A DNA stretch of 42,198 bases. Source: a virus. A model generated the notes under the pieces. The model was not told the DNA's origin. It saw nothing but the letters and a program-made list of their open reading frames with translations, and searched no databases. Each line of letters opens with the position of its first letter. Position 1 is the first letter of the stretch. Positions 15,193-42,198 of the stretch are shown here, piece by piece. A program made the translations under genes and the position numbers. The stretch lies in IMG/VR virus record IMGVR_UViG_3300025141_000227, positions 1 to 42,198 of that record; one strand, given 5' to 3'.

Positions 15193-18100
15193 ATGAGCTT
15201 TAAACATCTTTTTGAAAAAGCACAAACACTCAAGTCACTTTCCAACCAGTCAGCAGATGAGGTTGGATCTGCAATTGAGTCGGCTGAATATCAAAGACAA
15301 GATATTATAAAAGAGCGCAGGTTTATTCCTGCGGTTGATTATACAACTGCCTCTAATTTTGCTCGGTACGGATCAGCCGAGAAATATTATGGTGAATCCA
15401 TAGATCGGATTTACAAGACCTATCCATATGATGGCTCCCTTCGCGAGCGGCTTAAGTGGGAAAATGAATCTACGGAGATAGATCTCTATATTCTAAACAA
15501 CCTTTATCCGCGTCGTACAGGTTATGGCCTGATGTCCCCTAGCGGGTGGGGAACCAGAAATGGGTCGCTTGCTAATGGTTATGGTCTCCCCAATACTTTA
15601 GAATACATTTATTTTAAGGGTGGTCCGCATCCAAATCCGGATGGCATGTCGCCGCTTAGCCTTCAGTTTACCGGGTCTAACTTTTATGATACCGGTTCTA
15701 ACAGAACATCGAACCTTAAATATGATCTGTCTGGCGATGGAGTTACTGTAGAGTTCTGGATGAAGAAGGATGCATATGCGTCTTCATTGACCACCAAAGA
15801 GGTGATCTTCGACATGTGGAATGGCGCCACTGAGGGATTGGCCCACTATGGACGACTGTCCTTGGCTCTAAATTCCTCAAACGAAGGCGCCGCAGTCTTC
15901 ACTGCGACCCTGCTTTCGGGATCTGACGGAGTAAGTGAGAGTTCAATCGGTAGTGCGGTCACCATAGCGGACTCAACATGGCACCACTATGCGTTCTCCT
16001 TTAAAAATGCCACAGCCGGCATTACCAGCAGAGTCTATATTGATGGGGCCCTCAATCAGGAGTCTACTCTTGGCAGCGACGCCCTTAATGAAGTAACTGG
16101 TGCGATGCAGGCCACACTAGGTGCCCTAGCAACCACTCTTGGCGGAGCCGCCCAATACGCAGGCAAACTCTCCGCATCTTTAGATGAGTTTCGATACTGG
16201 AAAACTCAGCGAAGTAGCCAAGACGTCGGCCGCTTCTGGTTTACGCAAGTTGGGGGTGGTGTTAACACTGATCCGCAGACATTCAAGGACACTACAGAAG
16301 TGGCCAACACTACTTTAGGTGTTTATTACAAATTTAACGAGGGCATTACTGGCACGAGTTCGGTCGACAGCAACGTTTTGGATTATTCCGGCCGCATATC
16401 AAACGGCGCCTGGACTGGGTACACTAGCGACTCACGTAACACTGGCTCAGCCATCATCTCTTCAAGCGCTGCTATTAAAGAATTTGAAGATCCGATTATT
16501 TATTCCTTTGATCCCGCGGTGGTTACTCTTCGAGCCGGTCTTATTCAGTCTGGTTCTGACCATGATGCCTCAAATGCCGCCTCTATCTATAAATCCATCC
16601 CTGCCTGGATAACAGAAGAGGATGTCGAGCGTGGATCTCAGCTTCATAACGTAACTCAGATCATGGCGAGCTATCTGGACACTCTTCATCTACAGATCGA
16701 GTCACTAAATAAGCTCAAGGATATCAACTACGTAAGTGGATCAGATAAGGTTAGCGTTTTTTCAGAACGACTTCTTATGTCTACGGGTCTTGTGTCTCCG
16801 GAACTGTTTGTTGACGCGACAGTACTTGAAAAACTCGGTGACCGCAGCGAAGATCGTGTATTTGAAAAGAATATTACAGAGATTAAGAATCAGATTTATC
16901 AGAACATTTACAACAATTTATCCTACATTTACAAGACAAAGGGAACTGAAAAATCATTTAGGAATTTGATTCGATGTTTCGGTATTGATGATGAGCTAAT
17001 CAAGATCAACATGTATGCTAATAATGCAGAGTTTGATTTTACGACAAACCGAAAAAACCAGTCATATGGTAAAAAGTATGTCAACTTTAATTCGATTCGT
17101 AGCATGGATGCTAACGTTTTCCAATTTCGGGATCCCGGTGACACCACAAATACTTATGGTTTTATTTCTTCGAGCACCAATTTAACTGGCGGATTTGCCT
17201 TTACCATGGAGGCAGACGTTCTATTCCCTGAGAAGTTTGATCAAAGTCATGACTTTTATCAGGACACAAATATTATTTCGTGCTCTCTTTTTGGTGTACA
17301 CGCCACGACAGCACAGTCGTCAGACACCGCCGGCTCCGAAAACGCCCAGACAGACACAGCATTTCCCACAGATGATGCAACAAACTTCCAGGTTTATGCT
17401 GTTAGGGAAACAAAGGACTCTCCTAACGTTACCTTTATCCTGAAGAGTAGCACCGGTGGCAAGGTACCAACTCTTACGAGTTCGATGTATTATGATGTTT
17501 ATGATAATAACCAGTGGAACTTTGCTGTTAAGATTAGCCCCTCTCGTTATCCTTGGACAGCATATGTGCCTACCGCGCCAATAGCTGACTATGATATTGA
17601 ATTCCAAGGAGTCAATGTCGACGCCGGCGTGGTTGTTAATAGCTTCAATGTGACAGGCACGGCAACCGCCCCCGGAGCAGCCTTTATGACTGGTTCTCGT
17701 CGAGCATTCGTTGGCGCCCACCGCACGAACATGACGGGGACTGTCCTTCAGCGCTGTGATGCTAAGATCGGCTCGTGCCGATTGTGGCTCGACAAGCTCA
17801 GCCAGGAGACAATTAAAGCTCACGCCCTCGACCCCACCAATTATGGCCTCGCTGACACAGGGCTCTATGCGTTCCCATTCCAAGCCACTGCTAGCTACGG
17901 CGACCTTCCACGTATCAACACATTAATGTTGAACTGGGACTTCAACCAGAATACCGGATCCGATGCTGCCGGCAGTTTCCGCGTCGCTGATTTGTCTTCT
18001 GGTTCTGCAACCATGGCATCAACTAGGAACGATTGGCTTGGAAACATACTTTATTATCAGCATCCAGGTTCTGGTTCAAGTTTTTCCGCTAGCGCCACCT

Positions 18101-21100
18101 CTGTTGTTGACAAGGAATATGTGGTGGCATCCAAGCAGAATCTGCCCGAATCTCTAGAATCATCGGACATGATCACAGTCCTGTCGCAACAGGATGAGGT
18201 TGAGTTCACGCGTGACTCACGGCCACTTAACTACTTCTTGGCGTTTGAGAAGAGTATGCAACAGTCAATTTCTGATCAGATGATCAATTACTTTGCAACT
18301 CTTACAGATTTAAACACCATTATAGGTGCACCGGTTAATCGCTATAGAGGCGAGTACAAGGGACTTAAGCTCTTGCGTCAGCGCTTCTTCGAAGGCGTCT
18401 CTAACAGTGAAATAGATTTTGAAAAGTTCTTTGAGTATTATAAATGGATCGATGGAGCCCTCAGCGTTCTTCTCGGACAGTTGGCTCCTATTTCGTTGGA
18501 TTTTGATCCCAACATTCGAACTTTGATTGAAAGTCACATTTTAGAGAGGAGCAAATATCAGAACAAGTTCCCGTTCTTGGCCCAGTCCGATCCAGATCTA
18601 ACGGGCTCTATTGGTACTATCGCCACACCAATTACTGTTAACTCTATTATCAATGATGCTCAGGGCACTGGCATTGAATCAGCACAGGCGCCTACAAAAC
18701 GAGTTACTGGCATGCCAAATACTTCGGTGCTTAATAGTTGGAAATATGATCATGCCCCCTTGGGCTCTACAACTCCCACTCCCCTTTCTTTGCTTTTCGA
18801 CGGTGTTGACGAATATGTTAGTGTTGGGGCTGCCGCTACTTGGGAGCCGCTGATCGGAGGGGCGAACGGCTCCGCAAAAGAATATAGCGTTTCTTTCTGG
18901 TTTAAACCAGCGGCGATGGTAGCTACAAATACGTGGTTATATTCTTTCGGAACTCGCGATAGAGATCTTTTTCTGCTTGGGGGCTCCCTCGGCGCGGCGA
19001 ACCTGAAGGCGACCAACAAATCTAACAGTGGCAACTACGCGCAAACTGCCGCTGGCGAATTAACTGCCGATACCTGGCATCATATTACTGTAACATGTGC
19101 CGGCGGCTCGGCCGGGTTAACCACAATTTATATTGACGGTGCCGACGCAACAGACTCGCAGGATGTATCCGCCGGCGGCCCGGACGAGATTATCGGCAAT
19201 TCATCAATTGGCGCTGACCCCGCGGCCGGCTCATACACTAAAGGCAATTTCTGCGACTTTGCTGTGTGGGACAAAGAGCTTTCTTCTGCCGAAGTAACCG
19301 AAATTTATGGCGCCGGCGCTCGAGTTAAATTAAGCACAAGTACTTGCCAATCAAATCTCTTATCGTGGTGGAAACTGGGCAATGGTTTGGACGACACTTA
19401 TACCGGCGCCGGCGCTTTAGCCGATGAAGCCGGCGGCCGCGACGGGACTCCTACGAACTTTGATTCGGCGTCAGATATTGAGGCTGACTCACCTGACTTT
19501 ATTGCCAACTATAATGGCGCCGCCCAGAACAGTAAATCAGTTTGGTGGCAGAACCGGGCTGGGAGAGATCTGCCAGCCTTTGCTACTCCTGATAATGTTG
19601 ATGCCGACAGAGAGGTCCTCCTTAACGCCATCAAGTCTTCCAACAACCGAACCCTAGGGCGCCCCTACCGATTCAGCGGGGGAGGCTCTGTGGTCCTAGG
19701 AGGCGTTGCCAGACACCCCAGCCAGCGCAAGGGTGTCGTGTATGAGGCGACGGCACCAGCCGGCCCCACAGTGGGTCAGGGAACCTATGGCGCGGTACCA
19801 AGCGATATCATGGTCGCCAAGTCCGCAGACGTAGAGAGCCTGATAAGCTCATCAGATGAGTACTTCCCATCTCAGAAAGTTCGTTATGGATTCGGAATGG
19901 GAGTCCAGTCAGCAAGTTACAAAACATATGAAAGAGACACTGATGGTGCCACGGTTGCACCCTTTAGTCTCTACAGTTCATCTATTAGCGATGCTCTATC
20001 GAGCGAGATGTCGAACTTCACCGGCAGCACAATCATCACCAACATGCACGCAGATCTCACATCAGATCAGACAGACGTCCCAATGCAGGGCCCCTTTACT
20101 GAGAAATTCGTTGGAGGCCGTCAGCACCGCCATATTGAACTGAACCAGTCCGGATCTCCCGACAGTATCTCAGATGATCTCACTATGGCCAATAACTTCA
20201 ATGGCCTTGACACGCGCGTAAATCGCCCTGAAGGCTTCCGAGTGCAAATGGGCTACGAGTTCACGGGCTCCAACACCGGAAGCCCCTGGAAGGCATCCTC
20301 GGGCCACCTACAGGTGGTCTCACCGCAGTATCCTGAGTTGGACACCTCTCCCGGCACTACAAACCTTTATGACAGACCCAAAGCAAATCTGCCGCGAGGA
20401 GAATATGCCAAGCGCCCCGTAAACATCAAGAACATTCGTATGACGACGGCGTCCTTGAGTCAATCCATGTCCGGGGTAATTGATCACAATCGAATTGGCA
20501 ACTACACGAAGAACTACGAAGTCATTCAAACTGCTGGAAGATCACAGAACGATCCTTATTTCCGTGAGGGGACATTTACATTTGCTCCCAATCCGGAAAC
20601 TATGGCGACGAGGGGCCGCTTCCCTATGCTGTCTGGCGCCGTCCCATCTGCCTCTTCTCCGTATGCTACTGCTTCTAACCGCGGCCCAAATGTATCTGGA
20701 GCTCTTGATTATGAACTCCCAGTTCGAACGGGGTCTGCATCCAATCAAACGATTTTGGTAAATCGATTTAATGCTCCGGGATCCCCAGAAGCTTCTTCAC
20801 AAGGTTATTTAGACCCAGCTCATGAAGAGTTTTCTGTGTATAACGCGCTTCCTTATCGTAATCAAACTGTTGTTAATTATGGTCTATCAGGAAGTGCATC
20901 GCTTGCACCCTCTGGAAGTAATTCAATCATCCCCCAAGACCAGCTCGACCTCCCCCGCGGCCTAAACCAGCTTTCGACACTTCATTGTGGTCCGTTTGGC
21001 GCGGACTCAGCGTTTGGCGAGATAACGCTGGCTGCAGCCATCGCCGGCGCCGACGGCACTGTGGTGTCTCCCAGTTTCCATAAGACACAGAGGAACAGCA

Positions 21101-24100
21101 CGAAGAGATTGAAGTATATTCAGGAAACTCGATCATTGTTGTTTGATGGCGTAGATGATCAGTACCTGTGCAACGGTGGAATCAGCACCGTGGATTCAAG
21201 CTGGGAGAATCTTATTGGTGGCGCAGGGAGCTCGGCCCTTCCGTTTACTTTTTCATTTTGGGTAAACCTCGATAGTGTCGCCCAGGATCAAACAATCATA
21301 AGCCTAGGCACCGATGCGCGCGGTGTTTATTTCGAGAACACCGGTGACTATATGCAGTTCTTCATCGGGAAAGACTCGGGCGGCAACGACGGCATAGTAA
21401 GAACCGGCGCGCTCACGGCCGGCCGATGGTATCATATTGTCGCGACGTTTTCGGGAGGTGATCCGGGAGGATCCGATACCGAAGATGATATGAAAATTTA
21501 TCTCAATGGTGCCCTGGACACGACGGTGGTGTCGGAACTAGACGATCCCAAAGAAATACCCGGCGATGGCGACGGGTTTAGAATTGGTGGCAGGGAGTGG
21601 GGTTACCTAGATGGATATTTGAGTAATGTAGCAATATGGAAAGCAGAACTAAGTGCTGCAGAAGTTAGCGCAATATATAATTCCGGGCACCTATTTGATT
21701 TGGCACGCGTGAAAATAGATGATCTTCTTGCGTGGTATCGGATGAGCGATCAGGGTGGTTTAGAACCGCCAGATAGCACCGTGCTTCTCCAGAACCGCGC
21801 CCCCAAAGCGGCGTATTATTTTGGAACCGCCGGTAGAACTAATTTCCGCGCGCGCGCAGGTGCACCTGGGGCCTATGCCAGTACTGTTCCGGCATCACCG
21901 CCGACGTGGCCCATCGTCACCGGGTCTGTGTATGACAACCTATATGAACAGCATGGCGTTCCCAATGCCGACAGGAACTATGCTTGGATCACTGCATCTT
22001 TGGAAGCAGACGTTCCGTTTTATGGTTTTGATCAGAAGATCCCAGCACCCGGACAGACAGACACACCGTGGTATATTGGAAATAAATCTACAAACTGGAA
22101 CAGCAGCAACTACGGCCTCGAAGATGCCGACGAATATGCACGTGATAAGTGGAACGCCCTGATTGGTGGTCCCGTCGGTGCAGCCAAGGCTTATAGTTAT
22201 TCAATGTGGGTACGACCTACTACTATGGTTGATTCTATTCCTAAATTCGTATCGTGGGGCGGTTTCGCGCGATATCTAGAAATATACGGAGCGAGCCTCC
22301 CTGCTCCCCTTCGAGCATATAACGGCCCAGTTATGGGGGGCAACTATCGAGCAAGTTCAACGAGCTTGAGTGCAAATACTTGGTACCATGTGGTGGTCAC
22401 GTATGAGGGAGTATATGAGGGAAATCCTCCAAATATTTATATAAACGGGGCTCTGGATAACGGCGCCGGCGCAGCCACCTCGGACCCAGCCGGCTTCGGC
22501 GTTTACGGCATGAGCGTCGGCGCCTCGGAGGTCAACACTATGGATTATCGCGGCCATATGTGCGACCTTGCAGTTTGGACAAAAGCATTGTCAGCCGGCG
22601 AAGCTTTCACCATCTATAATAACGGAGTTAGGTTTAACCTTAAGGCTTCCAACGCACCAGAGCGCTTGGTTGCATGGTGGCCCCTCGGCTCTGATCCGGA
22701 AGATGTCTCGTCCGGCTACGACGATGTACCTCCGGCATTCTATGATGAAGTTAGTCGCCAAAAACTGGTCGCCCTTATCGGTCCAGGTGTCGCAGGCCCA
22801 CCGATAGACTCAAGCGAGGCACCATCGGCGAAACTGCCTCTATATGGCTTTTACAAAAATACTACACCCAAAGTTCCCGAAATTTCTGCATATGTCGAGC
22901 GCGGCCTACAATCTACATCTGGTACAACTGTCCCTGACCTATATCCCTTCCAGGGACGTCCCTCCGGCACCTATGGCGCGCCGACCTCAACTACCACTTC
23001 CATGAATCAGCTTTATGAGCCTCCTTACTCATCACTAATCGATAGCGCAAGTGTCAATATTGCTGGCTTTGCTTATGGCGATCATTCAATTCGCTATGCG
23101 AACTTGGATACGCATGTGCTGGAGGCCCCTGCCTTTGCTCCCAATACCTCATCGCTGTGGTTAACCGGCACCTGGGGCGTCTCGGGCTCCTCACCATATG
23201 AGCATGGTGGCTTCTTTGTTGCGGGCGCCCCCAAAGACTGGAACTCCTACGGCGCCCCTCTTGCATATAGCCAATCATCCCCTTACCCGGGCCATCCGGC
23301 CTCCAATTGGAGCGACGCCCACGCATCGCTAGCCTCTCCTTGGACAATGGCCTTATGGCTTAAAATAGTTTATACTGGAAGCTATATTGAGGCCAGGCAA
23401 ACCGCCTCGAACCCGGCCGTCGACGGCACCGGGACGCCCTGGATGCCCCCATATGTCCTGTCTCCGGACGACAAATGGGGGGGAGACGCCGGAGCAATGC
23501 AAGTGGCCGGCTGGAAGACAAAGGCGATCGGTAACTGGTTCCAGGACGCCACCTCCCTCGTCGGCACCGGTTTATCACTATACCCGGCCCTAAACAGAGA
23601 TGATGACTATACCAATTCATCCTCGGCTAACCCTCCTAAGTGGATCCCCGTTTTCGCCATGCAAGGCACCGGGACGTCTCCTACGACGGACGCCAATAAT
23701 AATACTCGATATAATGGCTTCGTCATGCTCACCGGATCAGATTGGAACTTAACAAGCGGTTCAGGAGGATATTTAGAGTCCGACAAGTGGTATCATATAG
23801 TGCTTACATATGACGGTATCAGTCCGAAATGTGCCTCCGAGGGAGACTCCAAGCTCCAATGCGACTCAATGAAGATGTACGTTAATGGAGTGGATACTAC
23901 AAATAATGGATTGGTTGCATCTGGAACAGTGTTTGGAACCACACAGACGGCCGGAAACGCCGGCGGCCTAGAGAATGTTAAACCGATTGGCGGCGCATTT
24001 GCATTTGGAGGCGTGTCGGATTTCCTCTATTCTTGGCCCTTCAGAGGCTATCTGAATGACATACAGTTGTATAATACAGTGCTTTCTGCGTCTGAGGTCA

Positions 24101-27100
24101 CAGAACTTTATCAGCGACGCAGTTATAATTTATTTAATTATCCCTTTAAGCACACCATGACAAATTGGTGGCGTATGGGTAGCACACAAAACGACGATGC
24201 CTCTGTAATTTATGATGTAGTTGGTGGCATACAGGCAAATAATATGGGGCTCACTGGCACGACAGCGATAAATCCGCAGACTGCACTATCTGCAACTGCC
24301 CCAGCAACAGGCTCTTCTCTTCCGGGCAGTAATGAATTCCGATTTATATCAGGCACCCAGCTGGCCAACTCTTTTGTTACCTTTAATCATGCGATGTTAA
24401 ATAATAATGGGCCATATCAAAGCCCGACTTGGAAACAGGTGCGCACTGGGGATACACCAATGGCGCGCGCCTTGAGGAAGGCTAATCGTATTTCTATAGC
24501 CTCTCCTCCACCGATGGTACCGACCTTTGTGCCCGGAGGCACGAATGCAATTAATTTTGTACGCGGGAAGTCCTCGACTGAATTTGTAGATTATGTTGAA
24601 TCACCAGTACAGTCTAAATATAAAACTTTTGTGGCGGCCTTTGAAGATCGGTCGGAGAACCCCGATCGTGGTAATAATTCAATAGTCGAGGTTTCATATG
24701 GCAATAATTTGGGCTATTTTTCTAACAACGGTTTGAATAATAAACTAAATTTACGTTTAGACGTCAGAGCGAATCAACCATATACAGAAGTTCAAGACTA
24801 TATTGATAAAACGGGTGACCAAAAAATAGAAGTATATGCGTCCTATGGCGAGCGCGTGTACCCCGCCGATGTAAATTCTTATCAATCCCGGGTACGCACC
24901 AGACAAAATTATTCTATAAAAAATGTTTGGAATGATATTCGCCGCATGCGCAGCTTTGATGGATTAAATTCTCAAGGTTGGCCGGCCTATTCTTTTGCCC
25001 AACAGTCCGGCACTCAGAGCCCCGGGCCTTCCCAGGGAGATTACTTGGCCGATATCCTCGGCCGGCACAAGGAGGAACAAGTCTGGCCCGGGGACGTTCA
25101 GGCTCAATCTTCATGGCCTCTAGATGCTCCCGGTAAATACACTGAATTAACAAATTCATCCGGATTCGAATCCGGCACTGGTTCGATATTGGCTGCAGAT
25201 GGAACAACAAGAGTTTATAACACTGCATCAGTGTTCAAAAAAGGCCAATCTGGGTTTTATGGTGCATATTCGGATACCAATATGTTGGGCGACGCCGGCG
25301 TCTTTTCTTTGTTTAATAATTTGATCCAACCCGGTTCTGGCGCGGGAGCCGGCGAATTACAAAATACTTATAATTATTTTTCTAATATTAATGCAGTACG
25401 CAGGTCGGATTTGCTCGGGATTCTGAACGCTCAAAGTCAGTCTTCCCACCCGGCTGCTTGTTATCTGCGGCCGCTTACAGAAACGCCTGCTCGAATTCAA
25501 GCAGCTGGCCCGGCTGCAACCACAACAGCTCTCATTCCCGCCGGAACCACCCTTATGGGATTCCATCCATGGGTGGCTCCCCATCAAACGGGCCTAAGTC
25601 CATACAAGCCATATCAAGAATATGCTGAGAATCTTCGAATCGCCGGAAAAGATTGTTCGATCGTACCGGAGTATAGAATTAGTGAACACCTAGAAACTTA
25701 TTTGGGCAACGAGAACACTGAACCCGCCGATAATAGTTTTTTGACAAAACTAGGAAATTTGCTAGGCTTAACCGGGTCCTCCCTCGATTCTACAACTAAA
25801 GATTTCTATAGTGTTTACGCAACCACAGATTTCTTAGAATTGTTTAGGGTGGTCGACGCCGACCTCCGCGGCCCACGTGGCCAGTCCGAGTCCGACAATA
25901 TTGTTCGACATGGAACCACATTGCAGGCAACTGCTTTTACTTCTTTCCTGCCATATAAGGGCTTCTACCCTGCTGAAAGAACTGTTAAACTTGCTTCATA
26001 CTTCTCTCAATCTATGGGTTCATTTCTCCCGGGTACGCGCAGCAATGATCTCAGCCCAGGATTCCTTGGCGCTATTTCGTCGCCGGCGGCCACACCTAAT
26101 CAAACACTATCTAGAATTTTGTTAGAGCCTTTGTTTGCACCAGGTATTTTATTTAATACTATCAAGTCAGGGATTGCAGTAGGGAACTATGTGCTCCGAA
26201 ATACGGCTTCTAACCCGGGGGATACGGAAGGAAATACTCCTTGGAACATGAAGGCAATTGGCCCAGTAGGCCTTTCGGCCAAAGTGCCAGGAAGTTGGGA
26301 AACCACAATAGCCATCAAGTCTGCATCCGCCGGCGACCCCTACATGCACACCACCATAGTAGATGATTATTATGAATATAATTTTAATTCATCGGCCTCA
26401 TACCAGTCTGCCTCGGTATCATCAGCGAGCTTTGGAGCTCTTAACATTGGTCACAGCGGAAATGCCGCGCTTCCTTCATATAACCCCATTATCCAGAGCT
26501 ACGGTGAAGGCGCCGACCCCGTAGACATTGTCGAACAGACGCGCTGGGGTTATTATCTCTATAAAGTTCCTTTTGAGGCTATTCGCCAGCCGGCTAGATA
26601 TTTATCTTATCGAGCCCTCGCCGGCGTCACTGGCGCTAGCGAACCACCGCTGTGGGACGGCGGTCGACTGTCCAATACAGCCTCAGCCGGCTCAAACTCC
26701 CCAGTGCCCGAACGAGGTGTCGGCGCAGGTTGGCTGTATGACACAGGAATCCAAGAGAGTTCTAGCATAGCAAACCAGGTGGTGACCTCCCTGGCCAGTA
26801 CCGGCACCGGGTCGATCTTCGATGGCCTAACAAGCGGGCCCCTCAATGACCAGCGGCAGAATAAGATACGTTGGGATGGCGCTATGTCAACACAACTTTA
26901 TGAACTTGCAATTGATAACTTTTTGTGTGAAACAGTGAACTTTTTCCAAGATGGATTAACGAGTTACGTCTCTAAAGAAGAAACAGCTTGGGAACCCGTG
27001 ACCAAGAACAACTATTATGGTATGAGAGTTTCGTTATATCGGTCAACAACCGATGATGGAAACCCTAACTTTGGCATGTACAGCCGTGCTAGCGCATTTG

Positions 27101-28569
27101 GAACCCCCGTTTGTGTCACCGGAAGCCATGGCCTAGGGATCACTTATAGTCATCTCACTCCTTCTTATTATAATGGAACGTCTCATGTGGACATTGTGTG
27201 GCAGGCTCCCTATAGTGATCGGCCTACCATGCAAGATATTGCCTCTCGCGCGTCCGTTTTTTATAGCCGACGAATAGAAGACAATGTCGAGGTTTCTCCT
27301 TACAACTTTAGCTCTTCTTATGTCGGATATGTAACCAGCTCTCAACGCGAAGATTATGATTATAATCAAATGCAGATTACGGCGAGCGTTAATATTTTTG
27401 ATAAAGTGCTGGCCATCCCTGAGGGAACAAATGAGCAGAAAGTGCAGTGGCTCGTACAAACTAAATTTGAAACTCCTATTTTTGATTTTTATGATACCCC
27501 GTCGCTTCCACACCCGACTGCCTCTACTAGTGCTAGTTATTTAGGCGACGGCGCCACGCCTTCGGCTTGGGATGCCCCTATTGACGTGACCTCATCTGCC
27601 GCACCCTTCCAGATCCGTGGTATGTGGCACCAGTATGGTCGTATTCCTGAACCTTCGAAGGGCGTTTTTCTGGGGATTTCAGATTTGCCGATTGAATATC
27701 ATATGTCTGGAACTGGCGAAATTCAGGTTTCCTCACTTCGAGAGGTTGTAGGATTCGGAAATGCTGGAGATAAAAGAGTTGGAGAATTGTCCACTAGCAA
27801 GACGGTGCGAGAAGCTGTTCTCGTAGTGCCCTTCCGTACTGCCCTCGGAGAAAGGGAATTTATAAAACTGCCTTCCACCAATATCTTTGAACGATCCTCT
27901 GAGTTGGCTGAAAGAGCTCGATCCCGCGGCCGAGAGCAAAGGGGCGAGTTCTGGGACGAGATGCTCGGCCGATACAATCGACAAGTCGAACTCTTGGAGC
28001 GTTACATCTTGCCCCCCACTCTTGACTTTTTCATTAACAGGTCAGTTCGTCCGATCTTTTTTGATGCCTTCGAGTTTACAGAAACATTTTCCTCGAAGGA
28101 TTTGCAAAACATGTGGCAAAACCTGCCGCCCGAGAGCAACCAGAAGATGCGAAGACAAAGCAGCACGATCAATATATCTGATTTCTTCACAGATCGAATC
28201 TTTGGCAGAACAGATATACAGTGGCTTGTATTTAAAGTGAAACAGCGTGCTACAAAGGATTATGATATTCTTTCCAAGCGTGGCCTCACAAGGGATATAC
28301 CTCTTGTGCCTTCATCAATTAAATCTCCCTACAGTTTCAACTGGCCATATGATTATTTCTCTCTAGTAGAACTACTTAAAATTGACGAGAACGTGGAGTA
28401 CGTGTCCAAGGGTGCGGGTGCAACCCCGTGGGAGGATCCTCCCCCGCCACCGCGCCTAGGCGCATCCCCTGGTTCGGATACTACTGGACAATCTCAGTTT
28501 GTTGGAAACTATACGGAGGCAGAAGCGACAGCAATTCTAAATGATTTAAACAACAATCAGAATGACTGA
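15193..28569 (+). CDS. Giant (4458 aa) virion protein with about six LamG/ConA-like lectin domains
   Basis: One uninterrupted 13.4-kb gene, about a third of the window. It carries six regions with the LamG-3/concanavalin-like pattern (xFDGxxxY, FWxxP, WHH or WYH + V/I, IYxxGA, then xxVAxWxxxLSxxEV) near residues 153-410, 657-926, 1196-1436, 1981-2191, 2306-2520 and 2711-3016. Between them lie Ser/Thr/Gly/Pro-rich connectors. The last 230 residues differ: a charged helical part (RSRGREQRGEFWDEMLGRYNRQ), then QNMWQNLPPES and QWLVFKVKQRATKDYD, probably the domain that anchors it in the virion. Such lectin modules bind glycans, so adsorption is the likely role. The Shine-Dalgarno is weak (AGG only 2 nt from the ATG), so coupling to the gene before it is likely. 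Confidence 0.85.
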   Translation: MSFKHLFEKAQTLKSLSNQSADEVGSAIESAEYQRQDIIKERRFIPAVDYTTASNFARYGSAEKYYGESIDRIYKTYPYDGSLRERLKWENESTEIDLYILNNLYPRRTGYGLMSPSGWGTRNGSLANGYGLPNTLEYIYFKGGPHPNPDGMSPLSLQFTGSNFYDTGSNRTSNLKYDLSGDGVTVEFWMKKDAYASSLTTKEVIFDMWNGATEGLAHYGRLSLALNSSNEGAAVFTATLLSGSDGVSESSIGSAVTIADSTWHHYAFSFKNATAGITSRVYIDGALNQESTLGSDALNEVTGAMQATLGALATTLGGAAQYAGKLSASLDEFRYWKTQRSSQDVGRFWFTQVGGGVNTDPQTFKDTTEVANTTLGVYYKFNEGITGTSSVDSNVLDYSGRISNGAWTGYTSDSRNTGSAIISSSAAIKEFEDPIIYSFDPAVVTLRAGLIQSGSDHDASNAASIYKSIPAWITEEDVERGSQLHNVTQIMASYLDTLHLQIESLNKLKDINYVSGSDKVSVFSERLLMSTGLVSPELFVDATVLEKLGDRSEDRVFEKNITEIKNQIYQNIYNNLSYIYKTKGTEKSFRNLIRCFGIDDELIKINMYANNAEFDFTTNRKNQSYGKKYVNFNSIRSMDANVFQFRDPGDTTNTYGFISSSTNLTGGFAFTMEADVLFPEKFDQSHDFYQDTNIISCSLFGVHATTAQSSDTAGSENAQTDTAFPTDDATNFQVYAVRETKDSPNVTFILKSSTGGKVPTLTSSMYYDVYDNNQWNFAVKISPSRYPWTAYVPTAPIADYDIEFQGVNVDAGVVVNSFNVTGTATAPGAAFMTGSRRAFVGAHRTNMTGTVLQRCDAKIGSCRLWLDKLSQETIKAHALDPTNYGLADTGLYAFPFQATASYGDLPRINTLMLNWDFNQNTGSDAAGSFRVADLSSGSATMASTRNDWLGNILYYQHPGSGSSFSASATSVVDKEYVVASKQNLPESLESSDMITVLSQQDEVEFTRDSRPLNYFLAFEKSMQQSISDQMINYFATLTDLNTIIGAPVNRYRGEYKGLKLLRQRFFEGVSNSEIDFEKFFEYYKWIDGALSVLLGQLAPISLDFDPNIRTLIESHILERSKYQNKFPFLAQSDPDLTGSIGTIATPITVNSIINDAQGTGIESAQAPTKRVTGMPNTSVLNSWKYDHAPLGSTTPTPLSLLFDGVDEYVSVGAAATWEPLIGGANGSAKEYSVSFWFKPAAMVATNTWLYSFGTRDRDLFLLGGSLGAANLKATNKSNSGNYAQTAAGELTADTWHHITVTCAGGSAGLTTIYIDGADATDSQDVSAGGPDEIIGNSSIGADPAAGSYTKGNFCDFAVWDKELSSAEVTEIYGAGARVKLSTSTCQSNLLSWWKLGNGLDDTYTGAGALADEAGGRDGTPTNFDSASDIEADSPDFIANYNGAAQNSKSVWWQNRAGRDLPAFATPDNVDADREVLLNAIKSSNNRTLGRPYRFSGGGSVVLGGVARHPSQRKGVVYEATAPAGPTVGQGTYGAVPSDIMVAKSADVESLISSSDEYFPSQKVRYGFGMGVQSASYKTYERDTDGATVAPFSLYSSSISDALSSEMSNFTGSTIITNMHADLTSDQTDVPMQGPFTEKFVGGRQHRHIELNQSGSPDSISDDLTMANNFNGLDTRVNRPEGFRVQMGYEFTGSNTGSPWKASSGHLQVVSPQYPELDTSPGTTNLYDRPKANLPRGEYAKRPVNIKNIRMTTASLSQSMSGVIDHNRIGNYTKNYEVIQTAGRSQNDPYFREGTFTFAPNPETMATRGRFPMLSGAVPSASSPYATASNRGPNVSGALDYELPVRTGSASNQTILVNRFNAPGSPEASSQGYLDPAHEEFSVYNALPYRNQTVVNYGLSGSASLAPSGSNSIIPQDQLDLPRGLNQLSTLHCGPFGADSAFGEITLAAAIAGADGTVVSPSFHKTQRNSTKRLKYIQETRSLLFDGVDDQYLCNGGISTVDSSWENLIGGAGSSALPFTFSFWVNLDSVAQDQTIISLGTDARGVYFENTGDYMQFFIGKDSGGNDGIVRTGALTAGRWYHIVATFSGGDPGGSDTEDDMKIYLNGALDTTVVSELDDPKEIPGDGDGFRIGGREWGYLDGYLSNVAIWKAELSAAEVSAIYNSGHLFDLARVKIDDLLAWYRMSDQGGLEPPDSTVLLQNRAPKAAYYFGTAGRTNFRARAGAPGAYASTVPASPPTWPIVTGSVYDNLYEQHGVPNADRNYAWITASLEADVPFYGFDQKIPAPGQTDTPWYIGNKSTNWNSSNYGLEDADEYARDKWNALIGGPVGAAKAYSYSMWVRPTTMVDSIPKFVSWGGFARYLEIYGASLPAPLRAYNGPVMGGNYRASSTSLSANTWYHVVVTYEGVYEGNPPNIYINGALDNGAGAATSDPAGFGVYGMSVGASEVNTMDYRGHMCDLAVWTKALSAGEAFTIYNNGVRFNLKASNAPERLVAWWPLGSDPEDVSSGYDDVPPAFYDEVSRQKLVALIGPGVAGPPIDSSEAPSAKLPLYGFYKNTTPKVPEISAYVERGLQSTSGTTVPDLYPFQGRPSGTYGAPTSTTTSMNQLYEPPYSSLIDSASVNIAGFAYGDHSIRYANLDTHVLEAPAFAPNTSSLWLTGTWGVSGSSPYEHGGFFVAGAPKDWNSYGAPLAYSQSSPYPGHPASNWSDAHASLASPWTMALWLKIVYTGSYIEARQTASNPAVDGTGTPWMPPYVLSPDDKWGGDAGAMQVAGWKTKAIGNWFQDATSLVGTGLSLYPALNRDDDYTNSSSANPPKWIPVFAMQGTGTSPTTDANNNTRYNGFVMLTGSDWNLTSGSGGYLESDKWYHIVLTYDGISPKCASEGDSKLQCDSMKMYVNGVDTTNNGLVASGTVFGTTQTAGNAGGLENVKPIGGAFAFGGVSDFLYSWPFRGYLNDIQLYNTVLSASEVTELYQRRSYNLFNYPFKHTMTNWWRMGSTQNDDASVIYDVVGGIQANNMGLTGTTAINPQTALSATAPATGSSLPGSNEFRFISGTQLANSFVTFNHAMLNNNGPYQSPTWKQVRTGDTPMARALRKANRISIASPPPMVPTFVPGGTNAINFVRGKSSTEFVDYVESPVQSKYKTFVAAFEDRSENPDRGNNSIVEVSYGNNLGYFSNNGLNNKLNLRLDVRANQPYTEVQDYIDKTGDQKIEVYASYGERVYPADVNSYQSRVRTRQNYSIKNVWNDIRRMRSFDGLNSQGWPAYSFAQQSGTQSPGPSQGDYLADILGRHKEEQVWPGDVQAQSSWPLDAPGKYTELTNSSGFESGTGSILAADGTTRVYNTASVFKKGQSGFYGAYSDTNMLGDAGVFSLFNNLIQPGSGAGAGELQNTYNYFSNINAVRRSDLLGILNAQSQSSHPAACYLRPLTETPARIQAAGPAATTTALIPAGTTLMGFHPWVAPHQTGLSPYKPYQEYAENLRIAGKDCSIVPEYRISEHLETYLGNENTEPADNSFLTKLGNLLGLTGSSLDSTTKDFYSVYATTDFLELFRVVDADLRGPRGQSESDNIVRHGTTLQATAFTSFLPYKGFYPAERTVKLASYFSQSMGSFLPGTRSNDLSPGFLGAISSPAATPNQTLSRILLEPLFAPGILFNTIKSGIAVGNYVLRNTASNPGDTEGNTPWNMKAIGPVGLSAKVPGSWETTIAIKSASAGDPYMHTTIVDDYYEYNFNSSASYQSASVSSASFGALNIGHSGNAALPSYNPIIQSYGEGADPVDIVEQTRWGYYLYKVPFEAIRQPARYLSYRALAGVTGASEPPLWDGGRLSNTASAGSNSPVPERGVGAGWLYDTGIQESSSIANQVVTSLASTGTGSIFDGLTSGPLNDQRQNKIRWDGAMSTQLYELAIDNFLCETVNFFQDGLTSYVSKEETAWEPVTKNNYYGMRVSLYRSTTDDGNPNFGMYSRASAFGTPVCVTGSHGLGITYSHLTPSYYNGTSHVDIVWQAPYSDRPTMQDIASRASVFYSRRIEDNVEVSPYNFSSSYVGYVTSSQREDYDYNQMQITASVNIFDKVLAIPEGTNEQKVQWLVQTKFETPIFDFYDTPSLPHPTASTSASYLGDGATPSAWDAPIDVTSSAAPFQIRGMWHQYGRIPEPSKGVFLGISDLPIEYHMSGTGEIQVSSLREVVGFGNAGDKRVGELSTSKTVREAVLVVPFRTALGEREFIKLPSTNIFERSSELAERARSRGREQRGEFWDEMLGRYNRQVELLERYILPPTLDFFINRSVRPIFFDAFEFTETFSSKDLQNMWQNLPPESNQKMRRQSSTINISDFFTDRIFGRTDIQWLVFKVKQRATKDYDILSKRGLTRDIPLVPSSIKSPYSFNWPYDYFSLVELLKIDENVEYVSKGAGATPWEDPPPPPRLGASPGSDTTGQSQFVGNYTEAEATAILNDLNNNQND
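15649..16420 (+). other. LamG-like domain 1 of the giant protein
   Basis: Contains LQFTGSNFYDTGS, VEFWMKKDAY, STWHHYAFSFKN, RVYIDGALNQE, LDEFRYWKT and a GVYYKFNEG closing strand, followed by a DYSGR..NGAW unit. This is a full LamG-3 pattern within the N-terminal tenth of the protein. Confidence 0.75.
17161..17970 (+). other. LamG-like domain 2 of the giant protein (divergent)
   Basis: Weaker match than domain 1: GGFAFTMEADVLFPEKFD, NQWNFAVKISPSRYPW, CRLWLDKLSQETIKAHAL and LMLNWDFNQNTGSD follow the same strand order, but the FDG opening and IYxxGA turn are degenerate. Confidence 0.6.
18778..19500 (+). other. LamG-like domain 3 of the giant protein (cassette type)
   Basis: Opens with SLLFDGVDEYVSVG and WEPLIGGANGSAKEYSVSFW, then WHHITVTCAGG, IYIDGADATD, CDFAVWDKELSSAEVTEIY and LLSWWKLGNG. 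It shares the LIGG..GSAK.YS.S.W block with domain 5 and SLLFDGVD with domain 4. Six GCCGGC palindromes fall within 19099-19434. Confidence 0.8.
21133..21764 (+). other. LamG-like domain 4 of the giant protein (cassette type)
   Basis: SLLFDGVDDQYLCNGG, WENLIGGAGSSALPFTFSFW, RWYHIVATFSGG, KIYLNGALDTT, LSNVAIWKAELSAAEVSAIY and LLAWYRMSDQ form a complete LamG-3 pattern closely related to domains 3 and 5. Confidence 0.8.
22108..22752 (+). other. LamG-like domain 5 of the giant protein (cassette type)
   Basis: NYGLEDADEYARDKWNALIG leads into GAAKAYSYSMWVRPTTMV, TWYHVVVTYEG, IYINGALDNGAG, CDLAVWTKALSAGEAFTIY and LVAWWPLGSD. It is closest to domain 3 at the protein level, while codons differ widely. 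Confidence 0.78.
23324..24240 (+). other. LamG-like domain 6 of the giant protein (expanded)
   Basis: SPWTMALWLKIVYTG opens the domain; KWYHIVLTYDGISPKC, KMYVNGVDTTN, LNDIQLYNTVLSASEVTELY and TNWWRMGSTQ close it. A long Gly/Pro/Trp-rich insertion of roughly 100 residues separates the first strands from the WYH motif, so this copy is longer than the others. Confidence 0.72.
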
Positions 28570-38883: not shown

Positions 38884-40182
38884 ATGTCTCTATTCTTCCA
38901 TAAGTTCAAAAGCAATGATGTTTACGTCAACACGATCAAGACTTATCCTGAAGTAAAGTTTACGATATTTCAAGGTGGTGCATTCTATAATGACACCCCC
39001 AGTATCTCGGGGTCACTGACAAGCTCGCTTAATCTTCTCAGTTCGGGTGGAGTAAGTCTTTACGAATTGAACGTCGACCGTCATGAAAGCAGCTCTGCTG
39101 GTCCCGACGCTGCGCCGACCCCTCGCACTTTTGGTCCGAACGATGTTTTAAACAACAAACTGATTCGACCATGGATTTCTAAGGAAGGTTCCCGTATGAC
39201 CTTCCGTACCACCACCAAGGCTAGTTTTAATAGCACAAGCCCGGGCAATATCATGTACGGTTCGTATCCCCTGAGTGCGTCGATTAAGAAGACTTATTAT
39301 GCATCATCAGATGCGCGCTACACAGCCGCCACATTTGACAAGACCTCCGGTACGGGCATTGCAGTAAGTACCGCAGCGTCGGTTACTCGTATCCGAGCGC
39401 TTAAGAACGTCATAAATTATTATAACTATATAAGCCCGGAGTTTGCGTATTCCAATACCGCGCGAAGTTTCGATAGTATTAACCTCGGCCTCGTGAGTGT
39501 TCCTAGTATCTTTTATGGAAAGAATATTAAAAAAGGAACTGTCGATCTTAAGTTCTATTTTACGGGCACCCTTATTGCGCGCGCACAAGACACCGCGCAA
39601 AATGGCCTGTTATATGAGACGACTGGCCCACGGACCGGCACAGTTATTGGTCTTGCTCTCTACAACGAGGGGATGTTAATTTTAACAGGGGCCTATAACC
39701 TCGCACCGGATGCTGGCACGGGCGCCGATGCCTGTACGGACACATATACTGGCGGTTCAGCGATTAGCCCCGCGTGGACTTACTTTGCTGCCGGCGCACA
39801 GGAGACCGGTGTTGCTCCTCCTAAAAGCACCTTTACAATAGAAATGAGTGGCAGCGAACCAATTCAGTCTCTGACAATGTTTGCTACTCTCCCCAAAGGA
39901 GAACTAAATCACTCGAATAATCCCACCTATCTTCAGTTTTCTACTGCTAGTCATGTCTTGACTGCATCCACTGGTTATTTACAAGATCAAAAAAGAGCTA
40001 TTAAAAATGTTGTCTCTTCGTCCTATAATGATCCTACTGGGTCGTTTGTGAAAACGACCTATGTTTCGAAGATTGGAATTTTTGACAAGGACGAAAACTT
40101 GATTGCTATAGCTAAGCCCGCCACGCCGGTTAAGAAGACCGCCGAGCGAGACTTTACGTTCAAACTCAAAATTGATATTTAA
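38884..40182 (+). CDS. Virion structural protein (432 aa), paralogue of the previous gene
   Basis: Starts 8 nt after the previous stop with AGGACATGGA upstream. It shares the C-terminal module described for the 390-aa protein (NHSNNPTYLQFS ... IGIFDKDENLIAIAKPATPV ... FTFKLKIDI) and a KKGTVDLKFYFTG strand matching KKGSFTLEL there. Its N-terminal half (FHKFKSNDVYVNTIKTYPEV) differs. Rich in Ser, Thr, Gly and aromatic residues. The stop overlaps the next ATG by one base (TAATG). The two genes probably arose by duplication with later divergence and may form a mixed or neighbouring layer in the tail. Confidence 0.62.
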   Translation: MSLFFHKFKSNDVYVNTIKTYPEVKFTIFQGGAFYNDTPSISGSLTSSLNLLSSGGVSLYELNVDRHESSSAGPDAAPTPRTFGPNDVLNNKLIRPWISKEGSRMTFRTTTKASFNSTSPGNIMYGSYPLSASIKKTYYASSDARYTAATFDKTSGTGIAVSTAASVTRIRALKNVINYYNYISPEFAYSNTARSFDSINLGLVSVPSIFYGKNIKKGTVDLKFYFTGTLIARAQDTAQNGLLYETTGPRTGTVIGLALYNEGMLILTGAYNLAPDAGTGADACTDTYTGGSAISPAWTYFAAGAQETGVAPPKSTFTIEMSGSEPIQSLTMFATLPKGELNHSNNPTYLQFSTASHVLTASTGYLQDQKRAIKNVVSSSYNDPTGSFVKTTYVSKIGIFDKDENLIAIAKPATPVKKTAERDFTFKLKIDI

Positions 40183-40715
40183 TGATTTTAGGACTGGATA
40201 TTTCAACCAGCATTACTGGATACACCATATTAGACAGTGGTGGTTCTATACTTGTATGCGACCATATTGACTTACGAAAAGAAAAGAACTTCTTTAAGAA
40301 AATACAAATTGTGAGAAAGTGTCTGGAGGAGTTAGAGGGCGAATATCCTATAGAACAGGTATATGTTGAACAATCGCTCCAATCCTTCCGCTCCGGCTTC
40401 TCATCAGCGCAAACCTTATCGCTTTTATCAAAAATAAATGGCATTGTTTCGTGGTTGTGTTATAATATGTTTTACGGCGAACCCAAGTATCTCGCCGCCA
40501 CATCCGCTCGCAAACTGTGCGGAATAAAGGTTCCCAAGGGACAGAAAGCAAAAGCTGTTTCTTTACAGTTTGTTGTTGACAACGTGCCCGGTTTTGAGGT
40601 AGAATACACTAGACATGGAAATCCCAAGGCCGGTTATGCTGATCGGTCGGATAGCTATGTAATTGCAAGGGCGGGCTGGATTCGTGAAAGAGAAGAAGCT
40701 AAAGATACTGACTAA
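40182..40715 (+). CDS. RuvC-like Holliday-junction resolvase
   Basis: 177 aa with an RNase H-like fold: ILGLDISTSITGYTILD places the first acidic residue (D6) on the leading strand, VYVEQSL gives E63, and GYADRSDSYVIARA gives D154 and D157, matching the four carboxylates that bind magnesium in RuvC. Family members cut four-way DNA junctions. In phages they resolve recombination intermediates and branched DNA before packaging. It begins in a TAATG overlap with the last structural gene and its 3' end overlaps the primase gene. It marks the shift from virion to DNA-metabolism genes. Confidence 0.85.
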   Translation: MILGLDISTSITGYTILDSGGSILVCDHIDLRKEKNFFKKIQIVRKCLEELEGEYPIEQVYVEQSLQSFRSGFSSAQTLSLLSKINGIVSWLCYNMFYGEPKYLAATSARKLCGIKVPKGQKAKAVSLQFVVDNVPGFEVEYTRHGNPKAGYADRSDSYVIARAGWIREREEAKDTD

Positions 40716-41619
40716 TGTATTGGGGACCGGCTACCGGACCAACAACGAATATCTTTTTAAATGCCCCTATTGCGATCATCACAAGCGTAAGTTCTCCGTA
40801 AATCTAGACAAAGGCTACTACAAGTGCTGGGTGTGCGACACCCGAGGCAAGAATATTTATCGCGTCGTCCGCCGTTTTGGCACGAACCATGATAAGTCTC
40901 AGTGGCGCGAATTTACATCTGAGATCGATTTTGATAAGCTCGAAGACTTATTTTCTGAGAAAATAGAAGAAAAACAAATACTTGAGATGCCGGAGGGGTT
41001 TATATCTTTGGCGAATAAAGGCATGCCGCCCACTGGTTTTGCGGCCATGAATTACCTGAGAAAGAGAGGGATCGCCAAGCAAGACATTGTTTGGTGGAAG
41101 ATGGGATATTGCGCTAGCGGAGAGTACGAAGGCAGGGTCATAATTCCCTCATTTGATGATGAAGGAGATCTCAGCTATTTCGTATCCCGGTCTTACGATA
41201 GATCCTATTATCCTAAGTATAAGAACCCGCCGGCAAGTCGTAATATCATTTTTAACGATTTGTTTGTGGACTGGAGTTCAGACATTATTTTGGTTGAGGG
41301 GGTTTTTGATGCGATCAATGCCGGCCGCAATGCGGTCCCCATCCTCGGCTCCACCTTAAATCAGAACTCTGTTCTGCTTCGTAAGATCGTCAAAGAGGAT
41401 GCAGGTGTTTACGTGGCACTCGACCCGGACGCAACGAAGAAAGAGCTTGAGATTATCAAGACTTTACTGGATTTTGACATTGAAGTTTGGAAGGTCGACA
41501 TCGGCGATAACGAAGATGTGGGCTCCATGGAAAAGGAACAATTCCAGAAATGCTTGGAAAATGCGACCCTTATAACTCCGGACAACTATTTATTATTGAC
41601 GTTATCGATGTCAATATAG
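40684..41619 (+). CDS. DnaG-type primase (zinc-binding plus Toprim domains), GTG start
   Basis: 311 aa from GTG 40684. A longer reading from TTG 40663 would add seven residues inside the resolvase gene. A zinc ribbon lies at residues 27-51 (CPYCDHH ... YYKCWVCDTRGK, CxxC..CxxC). The Toprim catalytic core has ILVEGVFDAI (E205) and VYVALDPDATKK (D247, D249), the acidic pattern that binds metal. The layout fits phage DnaG-like primases such as T4 gp61 (about 340 aa), which lay RNA primers for lagging-strand synthesis with a helicase partner. No helicase is encoded here. The start overlaps the resolvase gene by 32 nt. Confidence 0.85.
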   Translation: MKEKKLKILTNVLGTGYRTNNEYLFKCPYCDHHKRKFSVNLDKGYYKCWVCDTRGKNIYRVVRRFGTNHDKSQWREFTSEIDFDKLEDLFSEKIEEKQILEMPEGFISLANKGMPPTGFAAMNYLRKRGIAKQDIVWWKMGYCASGEYEGRVIIPSFDDEGDLSYFVSRSYDRSYYPKYKNPPASRNIIFNDLFVDWSSDIILVEGVFDAINAGRNAVPILGSTLNQNSVLLRKIVKEDAGVYVALDPDATKKELEIIKTLLDFDIEVWKVDIGDNEDVGSMEKEQFQKCLENATLITPDNYLLLTLSMSI

Positions 41620-41780: not shown

Positions 41781-41823
41781 ATGAAAATCACCAAACAAAG
41801 ACTAAGAGAAATTATTAAGGAAG
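41781..41823 (+). repeat. 43-bp direct repeat, copy 1
   Basis: Identical base for base to 42072-42114. It begins exactly at an ATG and ends after the AAGGAAG that encodes the KE of IIKE. Identity stops just before the ATG and just after the module, so the repeat unit equals the N-terminal segment. Confidence 0.95.
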
Positions 41824-42198
41824 AACTTTCGAACGTTCTCTCCGAAATGAATGAAGATGATTATCATGCTGTTCGCCTGAGGCTACAAGTAGAATATGGT
41901 GTTGGCGCTTCGGGGGACCTAATAGAGGCTGTCTATAGGATTTGGCCAGAATTTGCAACAGAAGCAGTAGAGGTCCCACCCGAGATAGACCAGGCTATTA
42001 AGATGGCCATCGAGAAGTACCCCGCTGCACCCGAGTCCGCTCCGGACATGTCGTTGGAAGAAACTAATATAATGAAAATCACCAAACAAAGACTAAGAGA
42101 AATTATTAAGGAAGCGATAGAGGACTCTGAATGGGCCGGAAGCCCAACGGAAGCTGATCGCGATGTTGCCCGCGCCCGACAGAAAGAAATAAAGTCCT
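41781..42198 (+). CDS. ORF with repeated MKITKQRLREIIKEE module (3' end outside window)
   Basis: Open from ATG 41781 to the window edge (139 codons, no stop). The N-terminus MKITKQRLREIIKEE is lysine/arginine-rich and helical. After about 80 residues (LSEMNEDDYHAVRLRLQ ... IDQAIKMAIEKYPAAP) the same segment recurs in frame at codon 98, starting with its own ATG (42072). AGG lies 9 nt before the first ATG; GGAAG lies 11 nt before the second, so internal initiation is possible. The segment contains LRE and IKE, which fit the (L/I)xE cleavage site of T4-type prohead proteases. That is inference. Family unknown; I recall similar short N-termini from other marine phage proteins, but this is memory only. 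Confidence 0.65.
   Translation, partial: MKITKQRLREIIKEELSNVLSEMNEDDYHAVRLRLQVEYGVGASGDLIEAVYRIWPEFATEAVEVPPEIDQAIKMAIEKYPAAPESAPDMSLEETNIMKITKQRLREIIKEAIEDSEWAGSPTEADRDVARARQKEIKS
42072..42114 (+). repeat. 43-bp direct repeat, copy 2 (in frame with copy 1)
   Basis: Exact match to copy 1, offset by 291 bp (97 codons), so both copies are read in the same frame. The sequence after it (GCGATAGAGGACTC) differs from that after copy 1. Confidence 0.95.

Follow-up and report, generated by a model that had tools for sequence, protein, structure and literature searches.

An exact repeat in the last open reading frame of the window

The window (the whole stretch of viral DNA analysed here, 42,198 nucleotides) is a fragment without the head region, and it ends in an open reading frame (ORF) that carries one short coding sequence twice. 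RuvC-like and primase-like genes precede this ORF, and the features at this end of the window are as follows.

40182..40715, + strand: gene for a RuvC-like resolvase, which flanks the variable slot on its left
40663..41619, + strand: gene for a DNA primase-like protein, which borders the slot on the left (SbcD borders it on the right in relatives, here past the contig end)
41781..42197, + strand: ORF of 139 codons with two tags in one frame, without a stop before the contig ends; probably an in-frame fusion of two tagged cassettes
41781..41823, + strand: 43-nt repeat, copy 1; 41781-41822 encode the tag MKITKQRLREIIKE, with a predicted protease cut after E14 (41822/41823)
41823..42071, + strand: body 1 (residue 15 on), with a second L-S-E motif at residues 20-22
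42072..42114, + strand: 43-nt repeat, copy 2; 42072-42113 encode the same 14 residues, then A
42114..42197, + strand: start of body 2, ended by the contig end

The two copies of ATGAAAATCACCAAACAAAGACTAAGAGAAATTATTAAGGAAG (41781-41823 and 42072-42114) are identical at 43 of 43 bases, lie in one frame of the ORF at a spacing of 97 codons, and form the sole direct repeat of at least 25 nt anywhere in the window (42.2 kb); another listed match, at 63%, was rejected as due to chance. No base next to the repeat is identical on the left and only one on the right, past the 42-nt tag, and 18 of the next 60 nt agree. The first-pass annotation, which had described an exact 43-bp repeat in frame with unrelated flanks, was thus accurate in these respects. 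It was also right that one peptide is common to both copies, but the length that it gave, 15 residues, has to be corrected to 14 (MKITKQRLREIIKE), because the DNA identity stops inside codon 15; copy 1 continues with E at residue 15 and copy 2 with A (...IIKEA).

Chance was rejected as the source of an exact repeat of this length, and so was the codon usage of the virus (computed probability of synonymous identity, 0.0000). It is unlikely that the repeat itself gave rise to an assembly artefact, because the contig contains the two copies separated by unique sequence, and other contigs also have double tags. The contig ends (42198) before the ORF does, which leaves the body of the second module incomplete. 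A frame error within body 1 is possible. In a structure model of low confidence (pLDDT 54), both tag copies were modelled as helices. Octamers of the T4 late-promoter type number four in the window against 2.1 expected, which is not above chance. Elsewhere in the window, an ORF of 4458 residues (15193-28569) with five Laminin_G_3 stretches is situated amid baseplate-like genes.

Tagged genes and their variable slot in uncultured viruses

The same peptide (consensus MKITKxQLKQIIKE, 14 residues; hereafter the tag) stands at the beginning of hundreds of ORFs that are otherwise unrelated and for the most part lie side by side in arrays. A degenerate peptide search matched six viral contigs, in each of which the match was one of three to four nearby small tagged ORFs with unrelated remainders. 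A looser pattern found at least 294 tags in at least 119 viral loci (at least 120 stretches), and with longer pieces added, at least 327 non-redundant tagged ORFs from at least 106 virus loci were collected, with up to 25 tags per record; a reversed control pattern gave zero matches in 26 whole records. The bodies of these ORFs form at least 240 clusters, 203 of them single among the matches listed, and any body similarity was seen in only 8 of 1022 tagged pairs within a virus. The first-pass annotation had proposed this search and had suggested a mobile N-terminal tag placed on several proteins; the result agrees with it, if mobile is taken to mean copied or shuffled between genes. It had suggested no function for the tag. 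No transposition of the tag was seen.

Almost no functions emerged when 122 tagged proteins were scanned against Pfam and PHROGs. The tagged bodies are acidic, with a median net charge of -0.060 per residue (-0.019 in other ORFs). We found no published description of the tag in the open-licence literature, and an earlier description may exist.

Only two of 84,980 genomes of cellular species (bacterial and archaeal) matched the tag pattern. One of the two matches is a phage-like contig of 305 kb with 25 tags and with matches to the S77 protease and the gp23-like capsid protein; this contig (NHDW01000006.1; L179, L180), binned as Methylococcaceae bacterium TMED69, is a jumbo T4-like phage in a bacterial bin. 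A tblastn search of 50,697 phage records with the bare tag gave weak matches only, in one uncultured phage of 484 kb, which is weak evidence of the absence of the tag from cultured phages, because short K/E-rich queries may be masked. In short, the carriers of the tag are uncultured, mostly T4-like viruses, and bear it on hundreds of otherwise unrelated small proteins.

The gene order in relatives of the window is RuvC, primase, tagged cassettes and SbcD. In the closest of them (L003, L004/L008, L006 and L005/L185), identity to the window is 76-90% for the RuvC and primase proteins, while most cassettes differ, so the cassettes occupy a variable slot between fixed genes. Neighbouring tagged ORFs are closely packed, most often with a 4-nt overlap or a 1-nt gap. 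Mosaic internal or C-terminal modules (EVSSEKQRRWACAQKD..., NPWAICTASVGREDKEKYE..., KKVKGGYKATSKSG...) are also common to tagged proteins in different contexts (L112, L118, L076, L109, L114, L023, L061 and L068), and the tag or a tag-like sequence stands at the C-terminus of two ORFs (L183:16260-16868 and L025:4972-5511; ...MKITRRQLRRIIREAAEI, ...GKIKKSQLKRIVKEELKRFLKNK).

Copying, doubling and exchange of the tag

Tags with the same peptide share 73% of their codons within a virus and 64% between viruses, and identical tag DNA was found in 4 of 44 within-virus pairs and 8 of 701 between-virus pairs (an identical pair in G019 was left out of these counts, because its two members are one and the same site, present in two overlapping loci). 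When the labels were shuffled, the value for identical copies was 0.028 and that for codon identity 0 of 2000. Codon usage is not the cause of the within-virus excess, because it predicts nearly equal values for the two classes (0.417 within and 0.415 between viruses). Recent copying of the tag, as first suggested from the window, is also supported by virus G013, in which exact DNA copies limited to the tag recur in three pairs; in these as in the window, the identity ends at the tag edges.

Besides that of the window, six ORFs in five viruses contain two full tags in frame, which agrees with the fusion at a gene boundary that the first-pass annotation had offered as an alternative. Most of the second copies have no good ribosome site and are thus probably read within one chain. 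For the window itself, the doubling (not the nature of the tag) could also have arisen when two ordinary neighbour genes were merged by a frameshift or a lost stop, through mutation or sequencing error; tagged genes next to one another mostly adjoin directly or have a 4-nt overlap, and a TAA lies just upstream of the second ATG in both other frames. We regard such a merger as a substantial possibility at somewhat less than even odds, because of the six other double-tag ORFs and because no good ribosome site was found before copy 2 (42072).

An alternative start, MKL[IL]xExWxx[FY]xxE, was found on 25 unrelated ORFs (L184:59-283, L184:283-1170, L184:2333-2845, L090:5939-6532, L092:8194-9843, L095:4267-4986 and L069:2117-2833 are alternative-start ORFs), and its reversed control matched none. 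Some of these ORFs have exonuclease, AAA_33 (P-loop) kinase, acetyltransferase or Zeta-toxin-like domains. For two bodies, versions with each of the two starts, tag A and tag B, were found (L053/L082 and L094/L113), and in the L053/L082 pair the similarity starts directly after the tag.

A candidate capsid-targeting sequence and its known counterparts

When positions 10-16 were left free in the search, I12 (348 of 366) and E14 (355 of 366) proved to be near-invariant, whereas position 13 varies, and conservation drops past position 16. The motif [IL]xE occupies positions 12-14 in 96% of tagged proteins, in a protein set from a search that partly required this motif, and it peaks again at 19-22. 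Of 22 tag-bearing records, 17 have an S77 protease and 15 a gp23-like capsid protein; these T4-type genes are present in most of the long records, and the records without them may be fragments. The capsid propeptides of tag-bearing viruses end in [LV]L[RK]E, followed by S, T, A or Q, and were aligned with the N-terminus of T4 gp24. In several records, tagged or tag-like ORFs adjoin the protease gene. The prohead protease gene also has a small conserved neighbour, which begins MKKSELKxxxKPLVKECIxEVLxEEG (L134:2032-2421, L138:741-1142, L139:2576-2968, L140:2025-2429 and others); it resembles a lengthened tag and is possibly the source or partner of the tag. Virus G005 has two tandem, very similar genes for gp23-like capsid proteins (L150:421-2331 and 2393 onward).

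We interpret the repeat as a cleavable capsid-targeting sequence (CTS) that has multiplied greatly and heads a library of cassettes for proteins packaged in the head, and give this reading of the sequences a probability of about 0.7. The 14-residue tag would bind the prohead core and bring the attached protein into the assembling head, where the S77-type prohead protease would cut after I-x-E and leave the cargo loose, to be injected with the DNA. If any protein with the tag at its start were accepted, arrays of unrelated tagged cassettes would result, and copying of the tag from gene to gene by recombination or duplication would leave exact DNA identity that ends at the tag. The window ORF would then represent two cassettes fused in frame, which the protease could split again, a cut at each tag yielding two separate cargo proteins. 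There are two main counterpoints to this interpretation: the acidic bodies, which do not favour DNA binding in the head, and the protease, which was not found in 5 of the 22 tag-bearing records, including the long G019 (147 kb) and G006 (123 kb), all of which may be fragments.

The acidic bodies would suit an uncleaved tag that serves as a docking helix for a host-takeover complex, a membrane or a replication site, as would the helices in the low-confidence models of both copies and the position of most arrays, including that of the window, amid replication and recombination genes and not head genes. However, a near-invariant I-x-E whose middle residue is free to vary is more in keeping with a protease site than with a helix face, the tag does not exceed shuffles in its helical moment, and the capsid propeptide has a similar end, so we consider a docking helix unlikely. 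It is highly improbable that the conserved unit is DNA or RNA, such as a translation start signal or a recombination site that is incidentally coding. Codon identity between viruses (0.526) does exceed the expectation from codon usage (0.415), and the sharp ends of the identity would agree with such a unit, but the peptide is kept while synonymous codons vary freely between viruses, and the alternative tag, unrelated in sequence, replaces it on the same bodies. A repeat within one conserved gene family, the opposing explanation that the first-pass annotation had named, accounts for two copies in one ORF and nothing more, and is refuted by the body clusters, at least 240 in number, and by the window bodies, neither of which has a relative among the fetched ORFs.

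An extension of the CTS interpretation is offered only tentatively: a large group of uncultured T4-like viruses may have an open-ended library of head-packaged, injected proteins, in which each of the interchangeable tags would combine the roles of loading signal, cleavage site and homology hook for cassette shuffling, and the double-tag ORFs would be polyproteins split by the prohead protease inside the head. The injected head proteins of T-even phages include counter-defence proteins. If the CTS interpretation is right, a 14-residue signature would pick out, from sequence alone, the virion-borne, first-entering proteins among the many unknown ones of uncultured viruses and give a direct, testable list of candidate injected proteins. 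The tag would also be a natural example of how the copying of a short DNA module between genes can spread a targeting signal.

The closest parallel is the CTS of phage T4 (IPI, IPII, IPIII and Alt), which, like the tag, is a short start common to unrelated proteins with an [I/L]-x-E end, in viruses that have both an S77 prohead protease and a gp23-type capsid protein. The T4 prohead protease, gp21, cleaves behind L/I-X-E, and IPIII needs no more than its first ten residues for head targeting (PMC9026906); the internal proteins of T-even phages are diverse, and only the CTS is conserved (PMC3012670). As with the tag, DNA identity between the paralogues ipII and ipIII is confined to the start (30 of 30 bases over the CTS and 5 of 15 after it). 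However, the tag is another and longer sequence (14 residues against 10), the residue after the predicted cut (P1') is usually E in tagged proteins and A in T4 ipII and ipIII, and no clear similarity to the ipII/ipIII CTS was found, only M-K and the I-x-E end being in agreement. So the tag appears not to be homologous in sequence to the T4 CTS and to be alike in place, end motif and behaviour; the starts of the T4 internal proteins and Alt differ among themselves, too. The tag also differs in its abundance (as many as 25 tagged proteins in one record, well above the number in T4), in its arrays in the primase-SbcD slot and in its double-tag ORFs, and its packaging is a prediction.

In the giant phages SPN3US and phiKZ, N-terminal regions of head proteins are removed after x-x-E by a gp21-like protease, and gp53 and gp54 of SPN3US have an identical 15-residue start and diverged remainders (PMC5694885). 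However, the SPN3US motif is A-x-E, most of its propeptides are far longer, and no mass spread over orphan proteins has been reported for it. In a search of the paper on Far-T4 phages, neither internal proteins nor the prohead came up (PMC4360716). The nearest named relatives of the capsid protein of the tag-bearing G003 include Microcystis phage Mel-JY01, Flavobacterium immuto phages and Rhodothermus phage RM378, and any placement in Far-T4 would be tentative; the tag pattern was not matched in Mel-JY01 and the immuto phages. The promoter-early stem-loops of T4-type phages, which are mobile regulatory cassettes, are short repeats thought to promote the shuffling of small genes. These stem-loops sit between genes, whereas the tag is coding and begins at ATG, and the small gaps between adjacent cassettes (mostly -4 to about 30 nt) leave little room for an early promoter and a stem-loop.
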